Positions 3,019-39,258 of a stretch of DNA of 64,000 bases are shown one piece after another. This DNA comes from Emcibacter sp. (GTDB taxonomy: Bacteria > Pseudomonadota > Alphaproteobacteria > Sphingomonadales > Emcibacteraceae). The stretch is from positions 186,001-250,000 of the forward strand of contig JAJFIQ010000006.1 in assembly GCA_021774785.1 (NCBI GenBank). The letters are read 5' to 3'. The notes under the pieces were generated by a model. It saw nothing but the letters and a program-made list of their open reading frames with translations, had not been told where the DNA came from and searched no databases. The translations under genes were made by a program, and so were the position numbers. Numbering within the stretch: position 1 is the stretch's first letter; the number at the start of each line of letters is the position of its first letter.

Positions 3019-4527
3019 ATGAATGACCGTAAAATTCGTCATATTGCCATTATCGGCGGCGGTACCGCCGGATGGATGACTGCTGCTGCTTTGGCAAATG
3101 CTTTACGGGGAAACTGTAAGATTACCTTGGTTGAATCAGAAGACATCGGCGTTGTCGGTGTTGGTGAAGCCACTATCCCGCCCATTAAAATCTTCAACCA
3201 TTCCTTAGGTATTGATGAAAATGATTTCCTTAAAAATACCCAAGGTACCTTTAAGCTCGGTATAGAATTTGAAAACTGGACCCGTGACGGGCACCGCTAT
3301 TTTCATCCCTTCGGTGAATTTGGTGCCGATTTTGATGCTGTCCCTCTCTATCATTATTGGCTGCAATCTCGTGAAAATGGCAACGAAACCAGTCTTGATG
3401 ATTATTCAATGGCTTGGGTTGCGGCAAAAAATGGCAAATTCAACAAACCGACCCAAGACCCAAAACTGGTGCAGTCAACCTATGACTATGCCTATCATTT
3501 TGATGCCATAATGTATGCTAGATATTTACGTGGCTATGCCCAGAAAAAGGGTGTTACACGGCTGGAAGGCAAAGTTGTTGATGTTAAATTACGGGGTGAA
3601 GACGGCTTCATAGACCATGTGGTCATGGAAAATGACACAAAGGTTGAAGCAGACCTTTTTGTTGATTGCACAGGCTTCCGGGGGCTGTTGATCGAAGAAG
3701 CCATGAATACAGGTTATGAGAATTGGAGCCACTGGCTGCCCTGTGACCGCGCCATAGCGGTTCCCTGTTCCTCCGAAGGAGAGTTTACCCCCTATACCCG
3801 GTCAACAGCACGGAAAGCCGGTTGGCAATGGCGTATTCCCCTGCAACATCGTATTGGCAATGGTTACGTCTATTCAAGTGAACATATCAGTCAGGACGAA
3901 GCCACACACACCCTTCTCGATAATCTCGATGGCGAACCATTAGCTGGGGCAAGGGTGCTGGGCTTTACCACAGGACACCGCAAAAAATTCTGGAACAAGA
4001 ACTGTGTGGCCATTGGGCTTTCCAGTGGGTTTTTAGAACCGCTGGAATCCACAAGTATTCACCTTATACAGTCAACCATTACCCGCCTTCTTGCCCTGTT
4101 TCCCGATCGGGATTTTGATCCATTGGCCGAACAGGAATATAACCGTATTACCCAAGCTGAGTATGAAGCCACCCGCGACTTTATCATTTTACATTATAAG
4201 GAAACCGAACGGCGGGATACGGAATTATGGCGATATTGCGCGAATATGGAAGTTCCCGGAAACCTGCAATATAAAATCGATCATTTCCGAAGCGGCGGAC
4301 GCATTGTGGCAAACGAAATTGAACTTTTCCGGAACCCAAGCTGGCTCGCGGTTCTGATTGGCCAGAATGTTATGCCAAAGCGTCATGCCCCGCTGGCAGA
4401 CTTGCGCGGCGTGGACGGTGAGAAGTTATTAAGTGGCCTTCGACGTGTCATGGAACAAGCGGCAAGCGTTATGCCCACCCATAAAGATTATATCGATCAT
4501 TACTGCAGGGCCTCAGCGGAGCAGTGA
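3019..4527 (+). CDS. Flavin-dependent (tryptophan-type) halogenase-like protein 1
   Basis: A 502-residue protein of the FADH2-dependent halogenase family. It has the Rossmann motif GGGTAGW (residues 13-19), [10 protein letters not shown] (47-56), the catalytic lysine at residue 79 inside [12 protein letters not shown] (the same number as Lys79 of PrnA), the family motif WQWRIP, and [13 protein letters not shown], which carries the active-site Glu-Ser pair. All residues needed for hypohalous-acid chemistry therefore appear intact. Its position next to glycosidases and a TonB receptor is a recurring arrangement in Caulobacter-like and Xanthomonas genomes, where the natural substrate is unclear. 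A free-indole halogenase of a secondary-metabolite cluster is less likely because no biosynthetic genes surround it. Its 3' end overlaps the convergent paralogue by 28 bases. A reduced-flavin supplier is not encoded nearby. Confidence 0.9.
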
Positions 4528-6023
4528 CGGGCAATAAAATCCCGTTGGGACGGTAATTTTGTCACATTACTATCAATAATAGTCTTCATATCTGTAAGAA
4601 AGCCCTTAAGTTTGGCCACCTCCATGGTATCTGCCATAGGGTGATAGCTTTTGGGTCTTAGGCCCTGACCATACATAACCTGCAACCATGCGGCTTCTGC
4701 AAATAATTCATTATTTTCGCGAAATATACGGCCTGTTGTTTCAAATAAATCCATCCGGTGCTGTAGGGATTCCGGAATTTCCATTTCCTGATAGTGACGC
4801 CAGAATGGGCTGTCTGTACGCTCGCTTACTTTATAATGCATGATAATAAAATCACGGATACGTTCAAATTCAAAGGCAATCTGTTTGTTATATTCATTTT
4901 CATTGGCCGCAGAAAAACCCATGGTCGGGAACATCTGCGCTAGGCGGACAACGGAATTCTGAATAAGATGAATGGCGGTGGATTCAAGCGGCTCCAAGAA
5001 TCCGCTACTCAAGCCCACAGCTACACAATTCTTATGCCAGAATTTTTCCCGTCGCCCGACTGTGAAGCTAAAGCTTCGCGGGTCAGCCAAGGGCTTCCCT
5101 TCCAGATTGTTCATCAATGTATCTGTCGCCTCATCTTCGCTGATAAAATCACTGCAGAATACATGACCATTACCCGCCCGGTTCTGCAACGGTATACGCC
5201 ATTGCCATCCTGATTCATGGGCAATTGACTGGGTATAGGGTCGCATGCGTTCACCATTTTCCGTTGGCACCGCGATGGCACGATTGACTTTGCACCAATC
5301 AGCCCAACTGGTATAACCAATACCAAGCGCACTGCCCATCAACACAGACCGGAAACCCGTGCAATCCACAAAGAAGTCACCAGATATTTTTGTGCCGTCT
5401 TTTAAGGCTATCGCCTCTATAAAACCTGTTTCAGCATTAAGAATAGTGTCGATCACAAGACCTTCAATGCGCTTTACCCCCAATTGTTCGCTGCCCTGAC
5501 GAAGATATTTTGCATAAAGCAGGGCATCAAAATGAAAAGCATGGCTTATCCCCGCAAGAGGAGAATTGGGTATATTGTCAAGGCGCGAGAATTTATCAGC
5601 TTTAGCCACCTGATAATTGAAGGAATAATCCCATAAATCGCTGGTATCACCCTCGGCCTGTGTCCGCAGCCAATAATGATGAAACGGCAGGAAGCCGATG
5701 TCATGACCCATGGTACCGAAGGCATGCATGTATTTATTGCCAACCGAGCCCCAATTTTCAAATTGGATGCCGAGCTTGAATGTTCCCTGAGTTTTACGGA
5801 TAAAATCATTCTCATCCAGCCCTAGTACATTATTGAAAACCTGTATTGGCGGGATAGTGGCTTCCCCGACACCAATGATACCAATATCATCAGATTCCAC
5901 CAAGATAATATCAATCTGGGAACCAAGAAGCTTTGCCATCAGGCTCGCTGTCATCCAGCCTGACGTCCCACCACCAACAATAACAACCTTCTGTACGCGA
6001 TTTCCCTGTGCCATAATATTCAC
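4500..6023 (-). CDS. Flavin-dependent (tryptophan-type) halogenase-like protein 2
   Basis: Paralogue of the gene at 3019 (up to 507 residues) with the same motif order: GGGTSGW near residue 17, [10 protein letters not shown], the catalytic lysine in [12 protein letters not shown] (residue 83 from the first ATG, 80 from the second), GWQWRIP, and [13 protein letters not shown]. Two possible starts (6023 and 6014) differ by three residues; AAAGGTG at 6026-6032 favours the first. It is read in the same direction as the TonB receptor upstream, separated by a hairpin terminator at 6032-6067, so it may be expressed by partial read-through. The two halogenases converge and their coding ends overlap by 28 bases on opposite strands. 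Substrate unknown; a role tied to alpha-glucan uptake is inferred only from location. Confidence 0.9.
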
Positions 6024-15574: not shown

Positions 15575-17338
15575 ATGTTGTTTCGGTTAATATCCCTCTT
15601 GATGTTTCTAATATTAGGAACCCCAACCACATTCGCAAGAATGCAGGCTGCACCCATTCATCTCGAATTGAAAAAACATACCGAACATTTCCAGAAGAAG
15701 GTCTATAAAATCGGTGACCGGGTCTATTCGGCAGTGGGTTATAGTCTGGGCAACATCATTATGGTCGTCGGCCATGACGGTGTTATTGTGGTTGATACAG
15801 GTACCCATCCCACAGAAGCTGCAGAAGCATGGGCCGAATTAAGAAAAAAGACTGACAAGCCCGTTAAAGCTGTTGTCTATACCCATTTCCACCCGGACCA
15901 TTGGGGTGGGGTAAAGGCCATTATCAGTCAAGCGCAGGTTGACAGCGGAACCGTCAAGATAATTGCCCACAGAACCATGCTTGATAACGTCATTCATCAG
16001 GGGGGTGCGGTCGGCCCTATTCTTGCCATGCGCACGGCATATTCCTTTGGCCTGTTTTTATCACCGGAGGATCACGAAGGGATGAACCATGGAATCGGAC
16101 CGGAAATCACCCCCGGAATCTCAAGTTTCATTCGTCCCAATACATTTGTCGATAATGCGCTAAAGCTTGAAATCGCCGGTGTTAAGATGTTGATCAAGCA
16201 TGTGCCGAGCGAGGCACCAGATGAAATTGCAGTTTATCTAGAGGACGATAATATCCTGCTGTCTGGAGAAGCCATTCAAGGCCCTACCCTGCCCAATATC
16301 CATACGCTCAGGGGCACTAAATTCCGTGACCCTTATCTCTGGTATAAAAGTCTGGATAAATTACGAATATTTAAAGCCGAACATCTCGTGCCTTCTCATG
16401 GGCAACCGATCTACGGCAAGGAAAAAGTCGAAGAAGTAATCCGCATGACCCGCGATGGTATCCAATTTATTCACGACCAGACTTTGCGCCATATGAACAA
16501 AGGAGCGACCCCAGATGAACTGGTTAATCTGGTTAAAATGCCACCCTATCTCAGTAGCTACACCCCATTCCTGCGCGAATATTACGGTACTGTAAAACAT
16601 TCCGTACGTCAGATATATAATGGTTATCTGGGCTGGTTTGCCGGTGATCCGGTTGATCTGAACCCGCTACCCGCACCATATGCCTCACGGCGGTATATCG
16701 CCCTCATGGGTGGGCGGGGCAATGTTCTAAACCATGCTGAGAAAGCCATGAAAGAACTAGAATATCAATGGGCAGCGGAACTGATGACACATCTTATCCG
16801 TATCGATAAAACAGATCAGGATGCCAGAAACATAAAGGCTCATGCCTTGCGTGAACTGGGGCTAGCCTCCATGAATATCAATTGGCGAAACTGGTATCTT
16901 ACCGCATCATATGAACTAGAAGGAAAAATTGATCCCGCAAAAGGTCTGGTCAATGCGGTTGGCTTCTTTTCTTCCCCTGATATCATTGCACAATGGCCAT
17001 TATCTAAAATTCTGGAAGGACTTTCTGTGAGGCTTAAAACGGAAATATCTCAAGATAAAAATCTGAAGATAAATTTTACAGCCATCGACACAAATGAACA
17101 TCATGGGCTTGAGGTTCGCAAGTCAATCATGCAATTCCATGGCCAAGCCACAACGGATGCAACGGTAACTATTCAGGCACCCCGTCAGGCCATCATTGGT
17201 CTGCTCATGGGAAAATTATCTATTGCACAGTTCACGGCCTTGCCTGTAGTCTCCATCACTGGCAACACACAAGATTTGACTGCCTTTATGGCGATGTTGG
17301 ATCCGTTTTTATCACCAATCAAACTTACAGTTCACTAG
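15575..17338 (+). CDS. Alkylsulfatase-like MBL-fold hydrolase, exported
   Basis: A 587-residue protein with a signal peptide (MLFRLISLLMFLILGTPTTF, then ARM), a metallo-beta-lactamase domain with THFHPDHWGG (zinc ligands His104, His106, Asp108, His109), MNHGIGPEI, NIHTLRG and PSHGQPIYG. The middle dimerisation helices (NGYLGWFAGDPVDLNPLPA, then AEKAMKELEYQWAAELMTHL) and an SCP2-like C-terminus follow. This is the domain order of class III alkylsulfatases such as SdsA1, which hydrolyse primary alkyl sulfates to alcohol and sulfate in the periplasm; it is somewhat shorter than SdsA1. AAGGAC precedes the ATG. The GMC oxidoreductase starts 12 bases after its stop, so the alcohol product could be oxidised next. 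The exact substrate is not proven. Confidence 0.85.
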   Translation: MLFRLISLLMFLILGTPTTFARMQAAPIHLELKKHTEHFQKKVYKIGDRVYSAVGYSLGNIIMVVGHDGVIVVDTGTHPTEAAEAWAELRKKTDKPVKAVVYTHFHPDHWGGVKAIISQAQVDSGTVKIIAHRTMLDNVIHQGGAVGPILAMRTAYSFGLFLSPEDHEGMNHGIGPEITPGISSFIRPNTFVDNALKLEIAGVKMLIKHVPSEAPDEIAVYLEDDNILLSGEAIQGPTLPNIHTLRGTKFRDPYLWYKSLDKLRIFKAEHLVPSHGQPIYGKEKVEEVIRMTRDGIQFIHDQTLRHMNKGATPDELVNLVKMPPYLSSYTPFLREYYGTVKHSVRQIYNGYLGWFAGDPVDLNPLPAPYASRRYIALMGGRGNVLNHAEKAMKELEYQWAAELMTHLIRIDKTDQDARNIKAHALRELGLASMNINWRNWYLTASYELEGKIDPAKGLVNAVGFFSSPDIIAQWPLSKILEGLSVRLKTEISQDKNLKINFTAIDTNEHHGLEVRKSIMQFHGQATTDATVTIQAPRQAIIGLLMGKLSIAQFTALPVVSITGNTQDLTAFMAMLDPFLSPIKLTVH

Positions 17339-17350
17339 GGGATACCGACC

Positions 17351-18940
17351 ATGGAAGAATATGATTATATCGTTATCGGTGGCGGTTCTGCCGGATGCGT
17401 TCTGGTTCGCCGTTTGATAGATGCCGGGCATAGCGTCTGTCTTTTGGAAGCGGGAAAAACGGACAAGAGTCCCTTGATACATATCCCCCTTGGTCTAGCG
17501 GTCATTCTGCCCACTAAGCATGTTAACTGGGCCTTTGATACAGAACCTCAAGCGGGACTGAATGGCAGGCGCGGCTATCAGCCACGGGGCAAGACACTGG
17601 GCGGCAGCAGTAGCATCAATGCCATGCTTTATGTACGGGGTCACCGAAGTGACTATGATGACTGGGCAAATGCGGGCAATGCGGGCTGGGGGTATGATGA
17701 TATCCTGCCCTATTTTATAAAATCAGAAAATAATGAACGTGGGCAAGACGAATACCACGGCACCGGTGGTCCGCTGAATGTGGCTGACCTAAGAAGCCGC
17801 AACCCTTTCAATGATAATTTTATTGCTGATGCCAAGGAACTTCAACACCAGTATAACCCGGATTTTAACGGCGCACGACAGGAAGGGATTGGCGATTTTC
17901 AGGTTACTCAGATAAAGGGACAGAGATGCAGTGCTGCAGTCGCCTTCCTGAAACCCATCCGAAACCATCCAAAACTTAATATCATAACTCAGGCGCAATC
18001 ATCACAACTGCTCTTTGACGGTCACCGCTGCATCGGTGTGGAATATATTTCCAAAGGCCAGAAAAAATCGGTCAAGGCTCGGGCAGAAGTAATTTTATCA
18101 GCCGGGGCCTTTGGATCGCCTCAGTTGCTTATGTTATCGGGTATTGGTCCTGCGGCAAAGTTACAGAAACACGGCATTGATATTCGCCATGATTTACCGG
18201 GTGTGGGAGAAAATCTTCAGGATCATATCGATTATGTGGCGGCATATAAATCCAGATCCCTGGAACTAATGGGTTTTTCTCTACCCGGTTTTGTTAAAAT
18301 GACCGGAGAAGCCATTCGTTATGCTTTCACAAGGCGGGGTGTCTTTTCTTCCAGTGCGGCTGAATCCTGCGGCTTTCTGAAAACTGACCCCGCTCTCAGT
18401 CGACCTGATATTCAACTACATTTCATCAATGGCATCGTTGATGACCATAATCGGAGCCTGCATTGGGGACATGGTTTCAGCTGCCATGTCTGCGTATTAC
18501 GGCCCAAAAGCATTGGCTCGGTTGAACTCCATAATTCTAACCCGTTGGCACCCCCGAAAATTGATCCGGCATTCTTTAAGGAACAAGCGGATATGGATGT
18601 CATGATGAAGGGTTTTAAAATCATGCGCAAAATAATGAATAGCCCGCGCCTGAGTTCGCACGCAACTGAAGAATTATATACCGCCAACATTCACAGTGAC
18701 GCCGATATTGAACAGATATTACGCAACAGGTCCGACAGCGTATATCACCCGGTAGGGACCGCCAGGATGGGCTATGACCATATGGCCGTGGTATCCCCTG
18801 ACAGCCTGAAAGTTCATGGACTTGAAGGATTGCGAGTTGTTGATGCGTCAATTATGCCGACACTGATCGGTGGCAATACAAATGCTCCAACCATTATGAT
18901 TGCAGAAAAAGCCTCAGATATGATTATTAATTCTCCATGA
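17351..18940 (+). CDS. GMC-family alcohol/choline dehydrogenase-like flavoprotein
   Basis: A 529-residue glucose-methanol-choline oxidoreductase. FAD-binding motif YIVIGGGSAGCVLVRRLI near the N-terminus, RGKTLGGSSSINAMLYVRG (GMC signature 1), GAFGSPQLLMLSGIGP (signature 2), and the C-terminal VYHPVGTARMG with the catalytic His, then VVDASIMPTLIGGNTNAPT. These are typical of AlkJ-like alcohol dehydrogenases and choline dehydrogenases. No signal peptide is seen. It follows the alkylsulfatase by 12 bases, so oxidation of a released alcohol to aldehyde is the likely role; choline is less likely because no betaine aldehyde dehydrogenase is nearby. Confidence 0.9.
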   Translation: MEEYDYIVIGGGSAGCVLVRRLIDAGHSVCLLEAGKTDKSPLIHIPLGLAVILPTKHVNWAFDTEPQAGLNGRRGYQPRGKTLGGSSSINAMLYVRGHRSDYDDWANAGNAGWGYDDILPYFIKSENNERGQDEYHGTGGPLNVADLRSRNPFNDNFIADAKELQHQYNPDFNGARQEGIGDFQVTQIKGQRCSAAVAFLKPIRNHPKLNIITQAQSSQLLFDGHRCIGVEYISKGQKKSVKARAEVILSAGAFGSPQLLMLSGIGPAAKLQKHGIDIRHDLPGVGENLQDHIDYVAAYKSRSLELMGFSLPGFVKMTGEAIRYAFTRRGVFSSSAAESCGFLKTDPALSRPDIQLHFINGIVDDHNRSLHWGHGFSCHVCVLRPKSIGSVELHNSNPLAPPKIDPAFFKEQADMDVMMKGFKIMRKIMNSPRLSSHATEELYTANIHSDADIEQILRNRSDSVYHPVGTARMGYDHMAVVSPDSLKVHGLEGLRVVDASIMPTLIGGNTNAPTIMIAEKASDMIINSP

Positions 18941-19071
18941 TATTTCTATCAAAAGGCTACAAATTATAACGGGTATTACTGATTAGCCTCTTATGTTATG
19001 GTCTGCTCGGTCGCTTTATGTATTGGCCCCTTTTAAAAGTATGTCGTGAACAATAATAAGGGAATTTGATC

Positions 19072-21480
19072 ATGAAATTCAATGGTCTTGGCATTATTAT
19101 CGCGGCCTGTCTGTTACCCATGGCAGTATCAGCAGGTGACACGGTTGTTACCATAAAACGCGATGACTTTGGCACTCCGCATATCTATGCCAAGGATGAT
19201 CATGACCTTTTTTATGGCTATGGCTACGTTCTGGCCGAAGACCGCCTTTATCAGCTGGAAATGCTCAAAAGATCAACGCAAGGCAAGGTAGCAGAGGTTC
19301 TGGGCAAGGGTTTTATTGCCTTTGACAAAAAACAAAGAACCCTATTCTGGCCCGACGATATTCGGGCGGAAATATCTTTTCTTGATGATAATATGAGTGG
19401 ATTATTCAAGGGCTTCGCCGCAGGTATCAATGATCGTATCGCCACCGTACTCGCCGATCCGGACCAACTGATGCCTTACGAGTTCACCGCCAATGATTTC
19501 CGGCCACAGCTTTGGACGGATTATGATGTGGTGATGATGTTTGTTGGCTCCATGCTGCTCAGGTTTGGTGATTTTAATACGGAACTTGAAAATCAGGCCT
19601 TTCTTTCCGACCTCATCAAAACCCACGGCAAGGTGGACGCATGGAAAATATTCAATGCCGTGATACCGATAAATAATGGTTATGCCCCGACATCAATTCC
19701 CAAAGGCGACTGGCAGAAATCCGCGCACGCCCCCCAGCCCTTTCAACGTCATGAGGTGATTAATGCGAAAATCTCACCCCCCCATAACCCAAATGCGAGG
19801 GGACATGCGTTCAGCAATGCCCTTGTTCTTGGGCCGGAGCGGCTAAAGGGTGCCAAGGCTGTTTTGATCAATGGCCCGCAGTTTGGCTGGTACGTACCCG
19901 CCTATACCTATTCGGTTGGTTTTCATTCCCCGGGCTGGGATGCGGTCGGCAATGCACCGCTTGGCTATCCGCTGCCCATGTTCGGCTATAACAAACATAT
20001 AACATGGGGCAGCACATGGGGTGTTATGGATAATGTGGATATATTCCGCGAGACATTAAACCCTGATCGTCCCCTGCATTATAAACATAAAGGCCTATGG
20101 AAGGCTCTGCGTTCCCGAGAAGAAATTATTAAGGTCAAAGACAGTGAAGACATTACCTTTAATGCCCTGAACAGCATTCATGGCCCCATTATCCACCGGG
20201 ACGGGCAATATGCCTATGCCAAGCGGCGGGGGTGGGCCGGACGCGAACTTGAAACCCTCACCGGATGGATAGAAGCCACAAGGGCTAAAAACCACGCTGA
20301 ATGGCTAAATGCCGTGGGTAAATCTGCCCTGAATGTAAACTGGTATTTCGCCGATCAAAAAGGCAATATTGGCTATGGTTCCATGGGGGCGTACCCTGTC
20401 AGGGCCAAGGATCATGATAATCGCCTTCCCGTCAGCGGCGAAGGTGATATGGATTGGGTCACCATTCAATCACCCGCTATGAACCCTCAAAAACTCAATC
20501 CTTCGAGCCATTATGTTGCCAACTGGAATAACAAGCCCGGCGCGGGTGTTGATAACCCCGATGAATGGTGGGCTTCATGGTCAGAAGCAGACCGGGTTAA
20601 GATACTGGATGATGCCGTAAGGAAAGCAGGCAGAATGACCCCTGATCAGGCGTGGCATTTAATGATGCAGGCCTCATTCACCGACCCCAATGCCACCTAT
20701 TTCCGGCCCCTTATGTTATCTGCTTTGACAACATACGGAGAAAATCCGCGTTATGCCGCCATAAGGGACGCGCTGCTCAGCTGGGATGGTACATTTTCAA
20801 AGATGACGGGAAAAGGCACAGCCAATTCAAGTGGCAATGGCTACGAGCATCCCGGCAATGCCATTTTCCGCTTTTGGCTGAGGGAAATGATGGTGTCTGT
20901 GTTATCTGATGACCTGTCTGGTAATATTGGGGGCATCATCGCCCACAGCACCGGCTACGGCACGCCGGAAAAGCCGACAGCCAGCGGTATTAATATTTCC
21001 GTTGGGCTTAAACTGCTTTTTGAAACATTGCAGGGACGCGGCAGATTTGACTTTCTTAATGGTGAAAAGGCTGATGATATATGGATCGCGGCACTTGATA
21101 AGGCGCTTGAGAGTTTAACTACCAAATTCGGCAAGGATATATCCCGGTGGCATTTGCCAGTGCCCGCCACGCGGTTTCGGCATGTTAATTTTCTGGGTAT
21201 CCCGCAGGCATTGGCCCAATCCGTACGTGATGATATACCCGCCATGAACCGGGGTACTGAAAATAATATGACTGTCTTTACACAGGATGGGCCAAAGGGC
21301 TATGAGGTTGTCCCGCCCGGGCAAAGTGGCTTCATAAAACCAGACGGTGAAAAAGCAAAACATTATGATGACCAGTATTTAATGTATCAAAATTTGCGAA
21401 ATAAGCCCACATGGTTATATCGGAAAGATATTGATAGCCATACGGAACGCACATATAGCCTGACCATCAAGCGGCCTTAA
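19072..21480 (+). CDS. Penicillin acylase family protein (Ntn hydrolase), exported
   Basis: An 802-residue penicillin-amidase family precursor. I place the start at ATG 19072, since AAGGGA at 19058-19063 has ideal spacing. It has a signal peptide (MKFNGLGIIIAACLLPMAVS, then AG), the alpha-chain motif DDFGTPHIYAKDDHDLFYGY, a linker, and a likely autoprocessing site before Ser248 in HAFSNALVLG, which becomes the N-terminal nucleophile of the beta chain. Conserved beta-chain elements include HSPGWDAVGNAPLGYPLPM, GYNKHITWGSTWG and DNVDIF. Family members cleave amides such as penicillins or acyl-homoserine lactones; substrate cannot be read from sequence. It lies 131 bases after the GMC gene, so it may have its own promoter. 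Confidence 0.88.
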   Translation: MKFNGLGIIIAACLLPMAVSAGDTVVTIKRDDFGTPHIYAKDDHDLFYGYGYVLAEDRLYQLEMLKRSTQGKVAEVLGKGFIAFDKKQRTLFWPDDIRAEISFLDDNMSGLFKGFAAGINDRIATVLADPDQLMPYEFTANDFRPQLWTDYDVVMMFVGSMLLRFGDFNTELENQAFLSDLIKTHGKVDAWKIFNAVIPINNGYAPTSIPKGDWQKSAHAPQPFQRHEVINAKISPPHNPNARGHAFSNALVLGPERLKGAKAVLINGPQFGWYVPAYTYSVGFHSPGWDAVGNAPLGYPLPMFGYNKHITWGSTWGVMDNVDIFRETLNPDRPLHYKHKGLWKALRSREEIIKVKDSEDITFNALNSIHGPIIHRDGQYAYAKRRGWAGRELETLTGWIEATRAKNHAEWLNAVGKSALNVNWYFADQKGNIGYGSMGAYPVRAKDHDNRLPVSGEGDMDWVTIQSPAMNPQKLNPSSHYVANWNNKPGAGVDNPDEWWASWSEADRVKILDDAVRKAGRMTPDQAWHLMMQASFTDPNATYFRPLMLSALTTYGENPRYAAIRDALLSWDGTFSKMTGKGTANSSGNGYEHPGNAIFRFWLREMMVSVLSDDLSGNIGGIIAHSTGYGTPEKPTASGINISVGLKLLFETLQGRGRFDFLNGEKADDIWIAALDKALESLTTKFGKDISRWHLPVPATRFRHVNFLGIPQALAQSVRDDIPAMNRGTENNMTVFTQDGPKGYEVVPPGQSGFIKPDGEKAKHYDDQYLMYQNLRNKPTWLYRKDIDSHTERTYSLTIKRP

Positions 21481-21549: not shown

Positions 21550-23730
21550 TTAATTATTTTCAAGGTTGTTCAGGGCCTGACGGATTTCCTGTGTCTTCCC
21601 CGTCGCAAACTGCGCTATTTCAACATCAACATTCAGGATATGACCAATCCACCAGTCGCGTAAGAAACGGCAGAGTCTATACCGCATTTCAGGGTCTTTG
21701 TTTTCACGCCAATCACGGGCCAGTTCATGCACCTGTGCAACAAGTTTCTGATGGTATTCCTGATGTTCTATCAGTTTGGGGAAGTCACAGACTTCCATGA
21801 TCGTCTCCTCTCGCCTGAAGTGATATTCGGTATATTCAATCAACTCTATAATGACGTTATTCAATTCTGCTTCTTGGCAAAAACCACTGGAAATTTTATT
21901 AATAAGAAAAATAATTACCTGGTGGTCTTTGTCGATGGGGTCAACGCCAACACGCAAGTTATCACTCCAGATTAGTATCATGTCATTTGATGCCAGCGGC
22001 AACTCGATCCAGAATGTTGTGCCTACACCTTCCTCACTTTCAAAATCAATCCGCCCGCCCATTTGCTCTGTAAGCAGTTTACATATGGCGAGGCCGATAC
22101 CATTGCCTTCTCTGGTTATCGCAGAATGAGAACCGAGACGTTGAAACATATTAAAAACATTTACATAATCTTGTTCAGCAATGCCAATACCAGTATCCGC
22201 AATCAGTATCCGCAAAAATCCTTCCTTGGTTTCCTGATAACTCACTATAATCGTACCACCATCGTTATTATATTTTACCGCATTGGATAGAAGATTTATT
22301 ATGATCTGTTCGAAGCGCAACTGGTCTGTGCGAAGAAGAGCCTTCGCTCCAGCCTTAATCTGGTTAATAACTTTTATTCCCCGCTCTTCCCCAAGAGGCT
22401 GTACCTGTGTAATACAATTTTGAATGGTTTCTACGGCATCGACTTCTTCCAAAAATATGGCCGCTTGGTCGGCCTCGATTTGAGATAGGTCGAGAATCTC
22501 GTTAATAAGTTTAAGAAGATAATTGCCACCAGTCAGAATATTCTCCACATACTCGCTCTGGGTTTTCGAAAGAGTTTCTTCTGAATTTAATAGCAACATC
22601 TGTCCAAACCCCAAAACGGCATTTAGCGGAGTTCGAAGTTCATGGCTCATGCTGGCAAGGAATTCCGATTTTGCCTTGCTAGCCTGATTCGCTTCTTTTT
22701 TGGCTACCCGTAAATTATCTTCATATAACCTACGGTCCGTTATGTCTATTATGGAACCCGCCATATAAGTGGGCTGGCCAAATTCATCGCGGCTTGCTCT
22801 GCCTCTGGATTGCACCCAAATATATTCACCATCTTTTTTACGCATTCGAAATTCCATGTCAAATGGTGTCTTAAATTCCAAATGGGTATTAACATGGTGC
22901 CATACCAGATCTCTATCATCAGGATGAATAATATTTGTAAACGTTGCCACAACCGGTTTAAGGTCGCTAAAGTCATACCCCAGAATCTCTGCCCAACGTG
23001 GCGAGAAGTAATCATCACCCGTTTTAATATTCCAATCCCATATGCCATCATTTGTCCCGTCAACAGCACGATGATACCGTTGCTCACTTTCCTTTATCCG
23101 GCGGATCATGGGATTGTTCACACGCAGAAATAGTGCTGCACCTAACCCCGTCAGGAGCATTGAAAAGAATATAAGAAAACCTCCCATTTCCAGGAACGGC
23201 GCACGGACCTCGGCAATATCAATTTTGACAACAATCCCAAAATTCAGTGTTTTTACCGGCTGATAGGCTGCTAAAACTTCAACACCATCATAATCTTTTC
23301 CGATCATGACGCCGCCGTACCCGTTAAGTGCTCGCCGCATGGGTTCGGCCAAGACAGATCCGGAGGGTACCCCACGGGGCACCAATTCACCGCCACCAGG
23401 TGAAATCAACAAGAAATTAATATTTTCACCCTGCTTCTGAGCAAGAAGGAATTCCCCTGTTTCCCCTATCTTTTCCAGTGAGTTAAAGGCCTCATTTATT
23501 TGGCTGAATGTCGCTGATAACGATCCATCCGGATAATCAGCACTATATTCCTGATCGAAAAGAGCCACAGATTCCAGTAGCCGCGTCTGACTAAGGGCCG
23601 TTCTTGTCAAATTTTCACGAGATTGATCCAAAGCCACCTGATATAAGGCCGTTAATGTACTGGCCAGAATAACCATGGCGATTATCACCATTATCCCGAT
23701 CAACGTTATATTTACCTTGCGAAAACTCAT
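21550..23730 (-). CDS. Hemerythrin-tailed PAS sensor histidine kinase (copy 2)
   Basis: A 726-residue membrane sensor kinase. I chose ATG 23730 because AGAGGTG lies six bases before it. Order: transmembrane helix (7-30), periplasmic region (30-183), second helix (183-203), PAS domain (about 215-335), HisKA with the phospho-acceptor His363 (ASMSHELRTPLNAVLG), HATPase with LLSNAVKYN, DTGIGIAE and GNGIGLAIC, then a C-terminal bacteriohemerythrin domain. The hemerythrin has all seven di-iron ligands: His in DKDHQ, HFRRE (HxxxE), EHQEYH (HxxxH) and HILNVD (HxxxxD). The di-iron centre should bind oxygen or sense redox state or NO. There is no receiver domain. It is closely related to the gene upstream, 86 bases away, so a tandem duplication is likely. 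Confidence 0.9.
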   Translation of the reverse strand: MSFRKVNITLIGIMVIIAMVILASTLTALYQVALDQSRENLTRTALSQTRLLESVALFDQEYSADYPDGSLSATFSQINEAFNSLEKIGETGEFLLAQKQGENINFLLISPGGGELVPRGVPSGSVLAEPMRRALNGYGGVMIGKDYDGVEVLAAYQPVKTLNFGIVVKIDIAEVRAPFLEMGGFLIFFSMLLTGLGAALFLRVNNPMIRRIKESEQRYHRAVDGTNDGIWDWNIKTGDDYFSPRWAEILGYDFSDLKPVVATFTNIIHPDDRDLVWHHVNTHLEFKTPFDMEFRMRKKDGEYIWVQSRGRASRDEFGQPTYMAGSIIDITDRRLYEDNLRVAKKEANQASKAKSEFLASMSHELRTPLNAVLGFGQMLLLNSEETLSKTQSEYVENILTGGNYLLKLINEILDLSQIEADQAAIFLEEVDAVETIQNCITQVQPLGEERGIKVINQIKAGAKALLRTDQLRFEQIIINLLSNAVKYNNDGGTIIVSYQETKEGFLRILIADTGIGIAEQDYVNVFNMFQRLGSHSAITREGNGIGLAICKLLTEQMGGRIDFESEEGVGTTFWIELPLASNDMILIWSDNLRVGVDPIDKDHQVIIFLINKISSGFCQEAELNNVIIELIEYTEYHFRREETIMEVCDFPKLIEHQEYHQKLVAQVHELARDWRENKDPEMRYRLCRFLRDWWIGHILNVDVEIAQFATGKTQEIRQALNNLENN

Positions 23731-23816
23731 GATATTCACCTCTCGGAAAATCATGTCCGAGTATACTACACAAAAACGGAAGTCATATTAACATATATCA
23801 ATCTATGGTAGATTGA

Positions 23817-26105
23817 TCATTTCTCAAGTTCTGTCAAAGCCTTACGAATTTCCTTCTTCTTACCTTTGGTATATTCCTCTATTTCAGTATCAACTTTCAT
23901 AATATGTCCAACCCACCAGTCTCGCAAAAAGTAGCTGAGTCGTTGGTGTAATTCCGGACTTTTATTTTTTCGCCAATCACGGGCTAAATCATTCACTTCG
24001 GCAACAAATTTTTGATGATAGGCACGATGTTCTTTCAATTTCGGATAACCACATACTTCCATAATGACTTCCTCTCGTCTGAAGTGATATTGAGTATATT
24101 CAATTAACTCCTTAATGATATCATTCAAATCAGTTCCATCGCAATTGCCACTGGAAATTTTATTAGTAAGAGAAATAAGGGTTTGATGGTCTTTGTCTAT
24201 GGCATCAACACCAACACGCAGGCTGTCACTCCAGATGAGCACCCCTTTATTTGATGCCAGCGGCAACTCAATCCAGAATGTTGTGCCCTTGCCAATCTCG
24301 CTCTCAAAATCTATTCGTCCAGCCAGTTGTTCCGTAAGCAACTTACATATGGCAAGCCCGATACCATTGCCTTCTCTTGCTACCCCTGAATGAGACCCCA
24401 GACGTTGAAACATATTAAAAATATTTGCATGGTTTCTTTCGGCGATACCAACACCAGTATCCGCTATGGATATATGCAGAAATCCTTCCTTGGTTTTTTG
24501 GTAATCCACCGTTATTGTACCACTATCTTTATTATATTTTACAGCATTGGACAGGAGATTAATTATTATCTGCTTAAACCGCATCTGATCTGTACGAAGG
24601 AAATCATCGGAACTAGCCTTAATCCGGTTAATAATCTTTATGCCTCTCGCCTCACACGAGGGTAAAATCTGAACTATACAGCTTTTAATAATTTCCTCTG
24701 CATCTATCTCTGTCAGATAAATAGATGCCTGATCAGCCTCAATCTGTGACAAATCAAGAATTTCATTGATGAGTTTCAGAAGGTGATTACCACCTGTTAG
24801 AATATTTTCCACATACTCATTCTGAGTTGTAGAGAGGTCATCTTTAGGGTTGAGCTGAAGCATCTGACCAAACCCTAAAACAGCATTAAGGGGTGTTCTG
24901 AGCTCGTGACTCATGCTGGCTAGAAATTCAGATTTAGCCCTATTCGCTGTCTCTGCTTTTTCCTTGGCCTTTTCCAATTCTCGTTTGTTGTTAATTCTTT
25001 CCGTGATATTCTTGGCGCTTCCCCGGTATCCGACAAATTGTCCATCATTATCATACACTGGAACACCGCTGACACTGACTTGCAGTTTCTCATTATTGCC
25101 AAAGACAACGGTATATTCAAAATCTTTAAAAGGGCGTCGGGCAATGAGGTCAGCCTTATGTTTTTCCCATTTCTCGGGTGTATCCTGAGCATTTGAAAAA
25201 TTCCACCGTTTAGTGCCAATCACCTCATCAACTTCGTAACCTGTAATTTTTTCAAAATTACCAGTGATTGACGTATATCTCAAATCGGCATCCATTTCCC
25301 AAAACCAATCGGAAGATACATTGGCAAAATCGCTGGCCCTGCGTTCACTGGTTAAAAGCTCCTGACGGGCCTTATACACTGAATCAAGCATATCATTAAA
25401 TCCATGAGCCAGTTTTCCCAGCTCATCTACGCGAACCACATCTGCCCGCGTATCATGCAACCCTTTTGATACTGAATCGGCAGCACCGATCAGCCGGTAT
25501 ATACCCCGCGACAACCCCAGCCCCATATAATATGCAAATATGGTTCCGACAATTATCGCCACAAATGTGTAAAGAACGCCATCTCTGGTAATGATATCCA
25601 AATTAACTGTCGTATTATTACGATCAATGCCGACACGCGCCCAGCCTATTTGACGGCCCTTTACCACAACAGGTGCCGCAACATCGATTATTTCGTCACT
25701 ATTGACCATAACAACGGTTGCCAATATATGATCAAGTAAAGCAAGGCTGATGGGATCGTCAATATATTTACCAACCATTTTACGGTCCGTATAACCCAAT
25801 ATTTTGCCCTTTAAATCGTGGATCATGGCATATTGCAAAGAGGGGTAGTTGCTTTGAGAGTTAATCACTTCTTCCAGACCCACAACATCACTGGATAATA
25901 TCCATGACGTGCTATTGGCCGCCAGTGTCTTGGCGAGGCTTCCGGCATGTTCGATAGTCTGTTCACGAAGAAAATTGCTTTGGCGGGTCACAAGATCAAA
26001 AACAAATATGGTCATCAATACTGCATGCACAAGGGCGATCCCGATGATCAACTGCCGCCGAATTGACCCCTTCCAAAAATATTCTATTTTTTTGATAATA
26101 GTCAT
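23817..26105 (-). CDS. Hemerythrin-tailed HAMP-PAS sensor histidine kinase (copy 1)
   Basis: A 762-residue sensor kinase: transmembrane helix (about 19-40), periplasmic sensing region with YAMIHDLKGKILGYTDRKM (about 90-160), second helix (177-197), HAMP (to about 250), PAS (255-370), HisKA with His400 (ASMSHELRTPLNAVLG), HATPase, and a C-terminal hemerythrin with complete ligands (DKDHQ, HFRREE, EHRAYH, HIMKVD). Kinase and hemerythrin parts are strongly similar to the copy downstream, while the sensor parts differ, so the two may sense different signals. The gene follows a PhnD-like binding protein by 65 bases. Three octamer repeats occupy the region where its ribosome site should be; the visible ribosome site is weak. 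Confidence 0.9.
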   Translation of the reverse strand: MTIIKKIEYFWKGSIRRQLIIGIALVHAVLMTIFVFDLVTRQSNFLREQTIEHAGSLAKTLAANSTSWILSSDVVGLEEVINSQSNYPSLQYAMIHDLKGKILGYTDRKMVGKYIDDPISLALLDHILATVVMVNSDEIIDVAAPVVVKGRQIGWARVGIDRNNTTVNLDIITRDGVLYTFVAIIVGTIFAYYMGLGLSRGIYRLIGAADSVSKGLHDTRADVVRVDELGKLAHGFNDMLDSVYKARQELLTSERRASDFANVSSDWFWEMDADLRYTSITGNFEKITGYEVDEVIGTKRWNFSNAQDTPEKWEKHKADLIARRPFKDFEYTVVFGNNEKLQVSVSGVPVYDNDGQFVGYRGSAKNITERINNKRELEKAKEKAETANRAKSEFLASMSHELRTPLNAVLGFGQMLQLNPKDDLSTTQNEYVENILTGGNHLLKLINEILDLSQIEADQASIYLTEIDAEEIIKSCIVQILPSCEARGIKIINRIKASSDDFLRTDQMRFKQIIINLLSNAVKYNKDSGTITVDYQKTKEGFLHISIADTGVGIAERNHANIFNMFQRLGSHSGVAREGNGIGLAICKLLTEQLAGRIDFESEIGKGTTFWIELPLASNKGVLIWSDSLRVGVDAIDKDHQTLISLTNKISSGNCDGTDLNDIIKELIEYTQYHFRREEVIMEVCGYPKLKEHRAYHQKFVAEVNDLARDWRKNKSPELHQRLSYFLRDWWVGHIMKVDTEIEEYTKGKKKEIRKALTELEK

Positions 26106-26108
26106 TAA

Positions 26109-26132
26109 TCAAATACTCAAATACTCAAATAC
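26109..26132. repeat. Three tandem copies of an octamer at a kinase start
   Basis: TCAAATAC is repeated three times without error (26109-26116, 26117-26124, 26125-26132). It begins four bases before the ATG of the kinase at 26105 and fills its translation initiation region. Gain or loss of a unit would alter the spacing of any ribosome site, so length variation could tune expression. Confidence 0.8.
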
Positions 26133-26170
26133 GGTTACGATAACTCTATTACCCCAAAAGCCTTAACATA

Positions 26171-27097
26171 CTAATCCAATGGTCTTACTTTTTCGTGAAA
26201 TTTTTCCAAAAATACAGTTATCGGCTTATATGTTGCGTTCGTTGCTGTTTCAAAACGGGAAAGATCCATAGCTGATAATAGTTTTTTACCCGTTGGATGT
26301 TCATGAAGTGAAAACAATATATTAGAGACTTTTGCTAACAGTTCGGGCGGGACATCATCCCGCACCACCAAACCATTATTCACCAGCGGCTCTGTCTGCC
26401 AGATCGGATAGACTTCTGCCGCCAGTTCAGGTCTTTCTGCCGACAATAAATTCCACGGTGGAGGCCAGGTGGCCGCCGCCACAACATTCCCAAGATATAC
26501 ATTCATCACCGAGGATTCCTGTGATCCCACATAATGAATATCCAGATCCTTCATCACATCAATACCATGGGTTTGGAGGTAATATTGCGGCATCATTGTT
26601 GCTGCGAGTGCTGTCGGTGCGGGAAAACTAACCGACTTACCTTTCAAATCTGCAACTTTTTTAATGCCACTGTCCTTGCGAACAAGGATAATTCCACGGA
26701 ATTTGTGATCATCGGCCATTTTACCAAATACACGATAACCATGCTGTAAAGAATTAATCGTCTGATAGGGGTTTGGCAGCGCAAATTCAAATTTGCCGGC
26801 ATAGAGTTTTTCATCATAGGCCGCATAATTTCGTGACGCCTCAATTTTAAAGGAAGCCTCTGGAATTTTCTCATTCAGATAATCGGCCAAAGGGCCAAAT
26901 ATTTCATAGAGACGTTCAGGATTATGAAGCGGATGGACACCCAGAATATATTCATGTTTTACATCGGAACTATGGTCAGAAAATGATGGCTTATAGCCCT
27001 CAGTCTCCTTTTGGTCACATGCCAACAGGGCCAACAGAATGTAGAATCCTGTTAGTATTTTCCCCAACAGGTTAGACATGTTAAATAAGTCACTCAT
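26171..27097 (-). CDS. PhnD/SsuA-like periplasmic binding lipoprotein
   Basis: A 308-residue lipoprotein with a lipobox ending in Cys27 (ALLAC-DQKE) and a type 2 periplasmic-binding fold of the PhnD/phosphonate-binding family (YILGVHPLHNPERLYEIFGP, LADYLNEKI, EFALPNPYQTINSLQHGYRV, GKSVSFPAPTALAATMMPQY). In ABC systems such proteins bind phosphonate, phosphite or similar anions. Here no ATPase or permease gene is adjacent; two membrane histidine kinases follow on the same strand. A sensory role, presenting a bound anion to the kinase periplasmic domain, is therefore more likely than transport. AGGG lies 11 bases before the ATG at 27097. Confidence 0.85.
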   Translation of the reverse strand: MSDLFNMSNLLGKILTGFYILLALLACDQKETEGYKPSFSDHSSDVKHEYILGVHPLHNPERLYEIFGPLADYLNEKIPEASFKIEASRNYAAYDEKLYAGKFEFALPNPYQTINSLQHGYRVFGKMADDHKFRGIILVRKDSGIKKVADLKGKSVSFPAPTALAATMMPQYYLQTHGIDVMKDLDIHYVGSQESSVMNVYLGNVVAAATWPPPWNLLSAERPELAAEVYPIWQTEPLVNNGLVVRDDVPPELLAKVSNILFSLHEHPTGKKLLSAMDLSRFETATNATYKPITVFLEKFHEKVRPLD

Positions 27098-27140: not shown

Positions 27141-28334
27141 TTACGAGTAGTTTAAGGCCTGATTGATATCGGCCAATATATCGTCTGCTGTCTCCAGACC
27201 AGCGGAAATCCTCACCAGCCCTTCAGTGATGCCAAAGCGCGCACGTTCTTCCGGCTCGTATGTGGAATGGGTCATGGAAGCAGGATGTTCAACCAATGTT
27301 TCCGCGTCCCCGAGGCTAACGGCAATCTTGCAGAGTTCCAGCGAATTGAGGAATTTCAGACCCGCATCATGGCCCCCATTCAGTTCGAAAGCAATCATGC
27401 CGCCGAAACGCCGCATCTGTGTTTTTGCCAGCTCATATTGATCAAAAGACGGCAGACCGGGAAAGAAAACTTTCTCCACCTTATTATTGCCCTCCAGAAA
27501 GCTTGCGATTTTTTCCGCATTATCACAATGCCGCTCCATACGAAGCTCCAGTGTTTTCAAGCCACGCGTAATCAGAAAAGCATTCATGGGCGAGAGGACG
27601 GCCCCGGTCATATCCTTCAGGCCTACATAGCGGATCTGTTCCATATCTTCGGTACTGGACAGGATAACACCCGCCATCAGATCACCATGACCACCTAAAT
27701 ATTTGGTGGCACTATGGACCACAATATCCGCCCCCAGCGCAATGGGGTTTTGCAGATACGGTGTGCAGTAAGTGCTATCCACCACCACCTTGGCCCCTTT
27801 AGTATGGGCAATTTCTGAAATGGCTTTGATATCCACAATGCGCATATTAGGATTGGCCGGCGTTTCAAAATATACAACCCGTGTTTTATCGGAAATCTCA
27901 CGGGTGAGGTTTTCAGGATCGCGCATATCAACATGACGTACCGTAATACCGAACCGCTCCATACCATGACGGAAGAAAGCGAATGTGCAGCCGTATAAAG
28001 TCTCATCCACCAGAATTTCATCCCCCGGCGAGACAAAGGACCAGAAAACGCTAGATATAGCCCCCATGCCGGACGCTACCGTGAGGCAGGCTTCGGCCCC
28101 TTCCAGTTCCGCAAGCTTTTGTTCCAGTTCATTCAATGTGGGATTGCCAAGGCGGGTATAGATATAACCACCTTCTTCACCGGCAAAACGCGCCCCGCCC
28201 TGCTCCGCCGTATCAAACTCAAAGGTGGATGTCATATAGATCGGTGAGGTCAGAGAGCCATGGGGGTCGCTCTTATCGCGCCCGGAATGAATGGCGCGCG
28301 TGGCAAAACCCTGTGGTTTGGTAGGAGATGACAT
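27141..28334 (-). CDS. megL: L-methionine gamma-lyase
   Basis: A 397-residue PLP enzyme of the Cys/Met metabolism family. I start at ATG 28334, because GAGG lies six bases before it while the upstream ATG at 28346 is only one base from the same site. With this start the numbering equals that of Pseudomonas putida methionine gamma-lyase: Tyr59 and Arg61 (GYIYTRLGNP), Tyr114 and Cys116 (LYGCTFAF) and the PLP lysine Lys211 (HSATKYLGGHG). Cys116 is diagnostic for the lyase versus cystathionine gamma-synthase. The reaction splits methionine to methanethiol, ammonia and 2-oxobutyrate. The gene is transcribed away from the MBL hydrolase. No riboswitch-like structure was recognised in its 133-base leader. 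Confidence 0.92.
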   Translation of the reverse strand: MSSPTKPQGFATRAIHSGRDKSDPHGSLTSPIYMTSTFEFDTAEQGGARFAGEEGGYIYTRLGNPTLNELEQKLAELEGAEACLTVASGMGAISSVFWSFVSPGDEILVDETLYGCTFAFFRHGMERFGITVRHVDMRDPENLTREISDKTRVVYFETPANPNMRIVDIKAISEIAHTKGAKVVVDSTYCTPYLQNPIALGADIVVHSATKYLGGHGDLMAGVILSSTEDMEQIRYVGLKDMTGAVLSPMNAFLITRGLKTLELRMERHCDNAEKIASFLEGNNKVEKVFFPGLPSFDQYELAKTQMRRFGGMIAFELNGGHDAGLKFLNSLELCKIAVSLGDAETLVEHPASMTHSTYEPEERARFGITEGLVRISAGLETADDILADINQALNYS

Positions 28335-28467
28335 GACATGCCTCATAAAATACTGTTACAATCAATAGAAGTCATTGTAACACATTACGCAATTAATTGC
28401 TCTATATCATGATAAATCAAAATTAATTGTCGAATATATTTAAAAAATAGAAACAGTTTTCAGAAAT

Positions 28468-38784: not shown

Positions 38785-39258
38785 ATGCCGAACAAATTAA
38801 ATATATTAGTTGTGGATGATATTTTTATTAATCATGTGATCCTTGAAAGCATTTTGCTTGAAAATGGACATAACGTGAAAAGTGTGAAAACAGGATTAGC
38901 CGCAGTGGAGACGCTGAAGGAGGAGAATTTTGACCTCATTCTCATGGATATTAATATGCCGGAAATGGATGGTAAATCGGCAACCCGCATGATCAGAAAC
39001 TTACCATCCCCAAAATCCGAAACCCCTATTATTGCCTGTACCGCTGATGATACAGAAAAGCATAGAAATGAATATCGGGATATTGGCATGAATGGAGTGA
39101 TTAGCAAACCCATATCCAAAGATAACTTGATCAATGCCCTGAATAATTACTGCAACGGCAGTTTTTATTTTCACAATGGAACCCAAAACAAAGGTGATAA
39201 AAACGCCACAAAGACCACAAAAGCACTAGGTGATCTTCTTAAGAAAATCAGCGACTGA
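38785..39258 (+). CDS. Single-domain response regulator (CheY-like receiver)
   Basis: A 157-residue protein made of one receiver domain: acidic pair in ILVVDDIF (Asp11, Asp12), phospho-acceptor Asp55 in LILMDINMPEMDGK, a Thr in ACTADD and Lys in VISKPIS. A basic, low-complexity tail of about 35 residues follows (KGDKNATKTTKALGDLLKKI). There is no output domain, so it acts through a phosphorelay or by protein contact. It is the only response regulator in the window but lies over 11 kb from the hemerythrin kinases. Its stop is three bases from the convergent Rieske gene. Confidence 0.9.
   Translation: MPNKLNILVVDDIFINHVILESILLENGHNVKSVKTGLAAVETLKEENFDLILMDINMPEMDGKSATRMIRNLPSPKSETPIIACTADDTEKHRNEYRDIGMNGVISKPISKDNLINALNNYCNGSFYFHNGTQNKGDKNATKTTKALGDLLKKISD

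Follow-up and report, generated by a model that had tools for sequence, protein, structure and literature searches.

A PhnD-like lipoprotein and two membrane histidine kinases, HK1 and HK2, are encoded by three genes on the same strand (Table 1) of an Emcibacter sp. contig, within the 64,000-nucleotide stretch of DNA analyzed here (the window). Our data indicate that HK2 is almost certainly a natural chimera of two sensor types. Its input half is 51% identical (E 9e-87) to a PhnD-linked kinase of genome G403 and has no match to HK1; its output half is 72% identical to HK1, and the similarity of this half to the G403 kinase does not exceed the background shared by all kinases. We propose that HK2 couples an input from the lipoprotein, received through its sCache-HAMP region, with oxygen or redox tuning by its C-terminal hemerythrin domain (probability roughly 0.6). 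Integration of two signals is plausible because a permease-free binding protein is paired with a membrane kinase and because hemerythrin lies behind the ATPase domain. On these grounds, the original prediction of a circuit joining a periplasmic signal to oxygen or redox state stands in part; two of its elements, a trio conserved as a circuit and an anion of the phosphonate/phosphite family as the signal, do not.

Table 1. Positions in the window of the lipoprotein gene, the two kinase genes, parts of HK2 and the neighboring landmark gene
Feature	Position	Strand	Basis
HK1, resident kinase: Cache-like sensor-PAS_3-HisKA-HATPase_c-Hemerythrin	21550..23754	-	domain profiles; congener orthologs
HK2, chimeric sensor histidine kinase (very probable chimera): sCache_3_2-HAMP-PAS-HisKA-HATPase_c-Hemerythrin	23817..26105	-	domain profiles
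HK2 C-terminal hemerythrin domain	23817..24242	-	TIGR02481, 118 bits (cut-off 51.75); seven di-iron ligands
HK2 residues 375-762 (HisKA-HATPase_c-Hemerythrin), output half	23817..24983	-	72% identical to HK1
HK2 residues 1-250 (TM1-sCache-TM2-HAMP), input half	25356..26105	-	51% identical to G403 PhnD-linked kinase
PhnD-like (PF12974) periplasmic binding lipoprotein	26171..27097	-	PF12974 profile; lipobox Cys27 + Asp at +2
Methionine gamma-lyase, syntenic landmark of HK1 locus	27141..28346	-	89% identical in congener G057

Two kinases with a C-terminal hemerythrin domain

Both HK1 and HK2 are histidine kinases by domain content, each combining a HisKA domain that carries the phospho-acceptor His with a HATPase_c domain. 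As originally predicted, they share their kinase and hemerythrin parts and differ in their sensors: the HisKA-HATPase cores are 76% identical and the hemerythrins 66%, the sensor regions have no significant similarity, and a HAMP domain occurs only in HK2. The sensor of HK1 matches dCache below threshold. At the DNA level the identity of the two cores is 74%, too low for a very recent duplication. Homologs of HK1 begin MxFR..N, which makes an internal ATG at 23730 its more probable start. A scan for consensus promoters and terminators gave no usable result.

The Hemerythrin profile scores 51 bits in HK2 and 38 bits in HK1. The full set of di-iron ligands that had been read in both proteins is indeed present (seven residues: H, H, E, H, H, H, D) and is invariant in seven relatives as well; moreover, the ATPase-hemerythrin junction is largely conserved across all nine aligned sequences, which represent several families. 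The domain matches bacteriohemerythrin 4xpy in sequence, and the AlphaFold2 model of the HK2 domain is a four-helix bundle whose four helices have block pLDDT values of ~66-91. Earlier examples of an output domain under the control of hemerythrin are DcrH, Bhr-DGC and Bhr-HD-GYP (PMC9388753). By analogy, it is somewhat likely that the hemerythrin of HK2 modulates the kinase according to O2 or redox state.

The domain could instead be an iron store, a scavenger of NO or peroxide, or a structural appendix, in which case HK2 would simply sense a ligand much as the AioX/ArrX systems do and carry a passive tail. Most bacterial hemerythrins that have been counted are single-domain proteins, with roles often unknown or non-sensory (PMC2556348, PMC12607906), the version of the lipoprotein-kinase pair found in G403 and its relative G995 has no hemerythrin, and within the duplicated half it is the hemerythrin that differs most between HK1 and HK2 (66% identity vs 81-86%). 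However, nine sequences from several families retain all seven ligands and a large part of the junction, and redox-dependent catalysis is seen in other bacterial hemerythrin fusions (PMC9388753), so that we regard a passive tail as rather unlikely, with about one chance in four.

Input and output of the signaling locus

The lipoprotein is a member of the PhnD fold family by its match to Phosphonate-bd (PF12974; 192 bits, cut-off 27). Its N-terminus contains a lipobox-type LLAC ending in Cys27, the sole Cys of the protein, followed by an Asp at +2 that would retain the protein in the inner membrane in E. coli. Its TIGR01098 score is 109.4, just below the cut-off of 112.05, and its match to the TtrS profile NF040750 is weak (40 bits, cut-off 750).

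The case for a signal from the phosphonate/phosphite family, as first suggested, is weakened by comparison with PtxB, whose anion anchor STS-H consists of S124, T125, S126 and H155 (PMC5700983). A HMMER alignment to the PtxB chain places A163, L164, A165 and Q193 of the lipoprotein at these positions. This replaced ALA...Q anchor is also found in the 63%-identical orthologs of G403 and G995, whereas the second PhnD-like protein of the genome, used as an internal control, keeps the STS and the histidine. This makes phosphonate or phosphite an unlikely ligand; another small molecule is more probable, to whose identity the conserved ATWPPPW segment offers a lead only. A wider possibility is that the input module senses phosphonate, phosphite, phosphate or an arsenic oxyanion, in the manner of AioX/ArrX. 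Membership of PF12974 speaks for it, as do the best PDB matches, which are PtxB, PhnD-type proteins and ArrX; but the loss of the anchor in the lipoprotein and its orthologs, the absence of the arsenite-site Cys106 of AioX, which follows from the lack of any Cys beyond C27, and the absence of molybdenum oxidoreductase or phosphonate genes among the scanned neighbors make it improbable.

Most likely, the lipoprotein serves no transporter. The original prediction noted no permease beside it, and this extends to the whole genome, where no PhnE-type permease was found. The five BPD_transp_1 matches genome-wide are ModB, PstC, PstA and a MalF/MalG-like sugar pair, and ModA and an SBP-like lipoprotein adjoin two of these systems. 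Binding proteins are able to serve permeases encoded far away, and the TIGR01098 score falls only just short of its cut-off; nevertheless, this permease inventory and the linkage of the lipoprotein to an sCache kinase in another alphaproteobacterial family leave a transport function, with an accidental kinase neighbor, very improbable.

We propose the following model. The membrane-anchored, transporter-free lipoprotein would bind its small ligand and dock on the sCache domain of HK2. Gene order and the linkage elsewhere make it likely that the lipoprotein acts through this kinase, although it could serve HK1 or another receptor instead. As has been proposed for AioX-AioS, docking would alter autophosphorylation, in HK2 by way of HAMP, PAS and the DHp helices, and the cytoplasmic di-iron site of the hemerythrin, just past the ATPase domain, would make the kinase more or less active depending on O2 or redox state. 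HK2 would thus read an outside ligand against inside oxygen or redox state, and HK1 would lead to the same output from a different periplasmic cue.

No response regulator adjoins the trio, as originally noted, in contrast to XSR-type clusters. About 50 receiver domains are encoded in the genome. Since the HisKA regions of HK1 and HK2 are 86% identical, the two kinases may well feed the same distant response regulator, which we consider moderately likely. The nearest receiver seen is a lone one at 38785-39258, which had been put forward as a candidate partner. Orthologs of it (48-59%) are encoded by four congeners, G102, G113, G096 and G041, in which hemerythrin kinases were not detected; conversely, G093 has a hemerythrin kinase but yielded no ortholog of the receiver. 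Several of these congener genomes are incomplete; as far as they go, the distribution does not track hemerythrin kinases, which weakens the case for this receiver as a dedicated partner.

Other loci were observed along the way. The second PhnD-like lipoprotein of the genome, with STS-H intact, lies in another binding-protein/kinase cluster without a permease inside (L145:6249-16921; contig C11, ~15.2-25.9 kb), together with a hybrid PAS kinase, a Peripla_BP_5 protein, a dCache-HAMP kinase, a PAS kinase and a receiver-kinase; this cluster adjoins flagellar-type genes. In G408 (L144:2063-7616), a PhnD-like protein with the pocket motif FPAPAAFAAS is encoded beside a hybrid kinase (receiver + Hpt) and a divergent regulator of NtrC-like appearance, an XSR-like locus. 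In Hwanghaeella grinnelliae (L030:7581-10561), a PhnD-like gene, a weak phmmer match, overlaps a histidine kinase gene at the 5' end of the latter. Within the window, alkyl sulfatase, GMC oxidoreductase and penicillin-acylase-family genes stand in a row at 15575-21480 with a divergent LysR regulator in front, which looks like an operon for the breakdown of an alkyl sulfate or acyl compound. Two convergent genes lie at 3019-6023; the first is of the tryptophan-halogenase family (652 bits), and a similar [10 protein letters not shown] sequence opens the second.

Probable origin of HK2 beside the resident kinase

A search of 385 genomes of the class returned one, G403, with a 63%-identical lipoprotein. 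G995, a second genome of that genus, whose family differs from that of Emcibacter, has the same lipoprotein. In both, the lipoprotein gene is directly upstream of an sCache_3_2-HAMP kinase gene, in the same order and on the same strand; the two kinases are 99% identical, and neither a permease nor an adjacent regulator was seen at these loci. The G403 kinase has no hemerythrin. Outside the genus Emcibacter, the pair is represented by these two genomes of one genus only. Among 298 genomes of the same order, no close relative of the lipoprotein was found; the only other match is 28% identical and lies beside an ordinary kinase. A plasmid search gave distant matches only (best ~21-29% identity).

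Across the PAS region, sliding identity of HK2 to the G403 kinase falls from mostly 45-65% to background, and that to HK1 rises from background to 52-88%; the PAS domain between the halves resembles neither kinase well. In a tree of the cores, HK1 and HK2 pair with each other (89/96) within a clade of their own genus (100/100).

The HK1 locus was recovered in congeners. In G057, an HK1 ortholog lies 3-4 kb from the methionine gamma-lyase gene on the same strand, and the locus contains neither the PhnD-like lipoprotein nor HK2. The HK1-type sensor is 59% identical in G057 and 67% in G093. The expectation that the trio is conserved across alphaproteobacteria is thus contradicted at both ends: only the lipoprotein and a hemerythrin-free sCache-HAMP kinase occur together outside the genus, and HK1 stands without the other two in G057. 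The G057 ortholog carries extra PAS domains, and HK1 orthologs in congeners (L127:7023-10358, L129:3102-5660) have one or more, so the number of PAS domains between sensor and kinase varies quickly.

The G403/G995 pair, the similarity of HK2 to HK1 and the congener HK1 locus together suggest that the lipoprotein and sCache-HAMP form the older unit and that the hemerythrin came from the resident kinase family. Because the G057 locus has HK1 without the other two genes, PhnD and HK2 were most simply added beside HK1, with the output half of HK2 built from the HK1 type, an order of events that we infer. GC3 is ~39% in the PhnD and HK2 genes, slightly more than 1 SD below the window genes (47 +/- 6), and is low in HK1 too (43). 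That HK2 is instead the older form, with hemerythrin lost and the core changed in other lineages and no fusion in this genus, can practically be dismissed: domain loss is common in kinases, but the HK2 core groups with HK1 in the genus clade, contradicting that history, and the core in G403 belongs to another type of kinase rather than being a truncated version.

Relatives of the core and known systems

A scan of ~85,000 species genomes for relatives of the HisKA-HATPase-hemerythrin core yielded, among the matches listed, at least six close ones (L012-L017), all from alphaproteobacterial metagenome-assembled genomes and 47-55% identical over the core. A binding domain is fused in L012 (NMT1) and in L015 (SBP_bac_3), and a binding-protein-like gene is directly upstream of the kinase gene in L013 (no Pfam match, modest PDB sequence matches only) and L014 (marginal in Pfam); L016 and L017 have neither a fused nor an adjacent binding protein. 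No adjacent dedicated response regulator was seen in L012-L017. By comparison, 55 other kinases of the same scan included one with a fused and three with an upstream binding protein (Pfam). The link to a binding protein is therefore found in 5 of 12 clade kinases vs 4 of 55 controls among the matches listed (p=0.007; 0.03 without the L013 case), in a clade sample that is small and partly non-independent, four members besides HK2 coming from one genus. These data are suggestive of a recurrent link between hemerythrin kinases and binding proteins. Hemerythrin domains but no further member of the clade were found in 349 genomes sampled from the phylum, and the matches listed for a fold search with the core model were all ordinary kinases. 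We tentatively raise the possibility, for which the odds are at present below even, that alphaproteobacterial kinases of this type form a family of two-input receptors, in which one redox-gated core, reporting to a common unlinked response regulator, has repeatedly been joined to varied binding proteins, whether fused or separate (PhnD-like, NMT1, SBP_bac_3-like).

HK2 probably reads external-ligand and oxygen or redox signals together. As a natural domain swap, its crossover is readable between HAMP and DHp, and both parental types are available, G403/G995 for the input and HK1 for the output. It makes two questions testable, namely binding-protein signaling through a single-Cache domain and kinase control by a hemerythrin placed after the ATPase domain.

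To call the locus an undescribed signaling system, as was done originally, is too strong. Signaling by a PhnD-type binding protein and a kinase is known from AioX-AioS-AioR and ArrX-ArrS-ArrR (PMC5908839), and four hemerythrin-histidine kinase fusions had been counted by 2008 (PMC2556348). A 2022 review of bacterial hemerythrin sensors covers a chemoreceptor, c-di-GMP enzymes and an ATPase, and its available portion contains no histidine kinase (PMC9388753). In the literature searched, we found neither a characterized hemerythrin-kinase fusion nor a description of a hemerythrin kinase combined with a binding protein.

As in the trio, a PhnD-type binding protein and a membrane histidine kinase are encoded side by side without a permease in the AioX/ArrX systems, and there the binding protein is a signal receptor, not part of a transporter. 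The trio differs in having no adjacent response regulator, no arsenic genes in view and no Cys106 of the AioX type; in addition, HK2 has a hemerythrin and the pocket motif of the lipoprotein is different. The tetrathionate sensor kinase TtrS (NF040750; PMC5408782) also links a PhnD-like binding domain to a histidine kinase, but by fusion, whereas the trio has a separate lipoprotein. DcrH, Bhr-DGC and Bhr-HD-GYP (PMC9388753) share with HK2 a hemerythrin that is fused to a signaling output and keeps all seven ligands; unlike theirs, the output of HK2 is a histidine kinase core. L012-L017 have the same core as HK2, and 4 of the 6, among the matches listed, have a fused or adjacent binding protein that is NMT1 or SBP_bac_3-like rather than PhnD. 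Binding-protein/kinase pairs and hemerythrin-output fusions are thus each known; what appears to be new, at the level of sequence, is their combination and the domain swap demonstrated in HK2.
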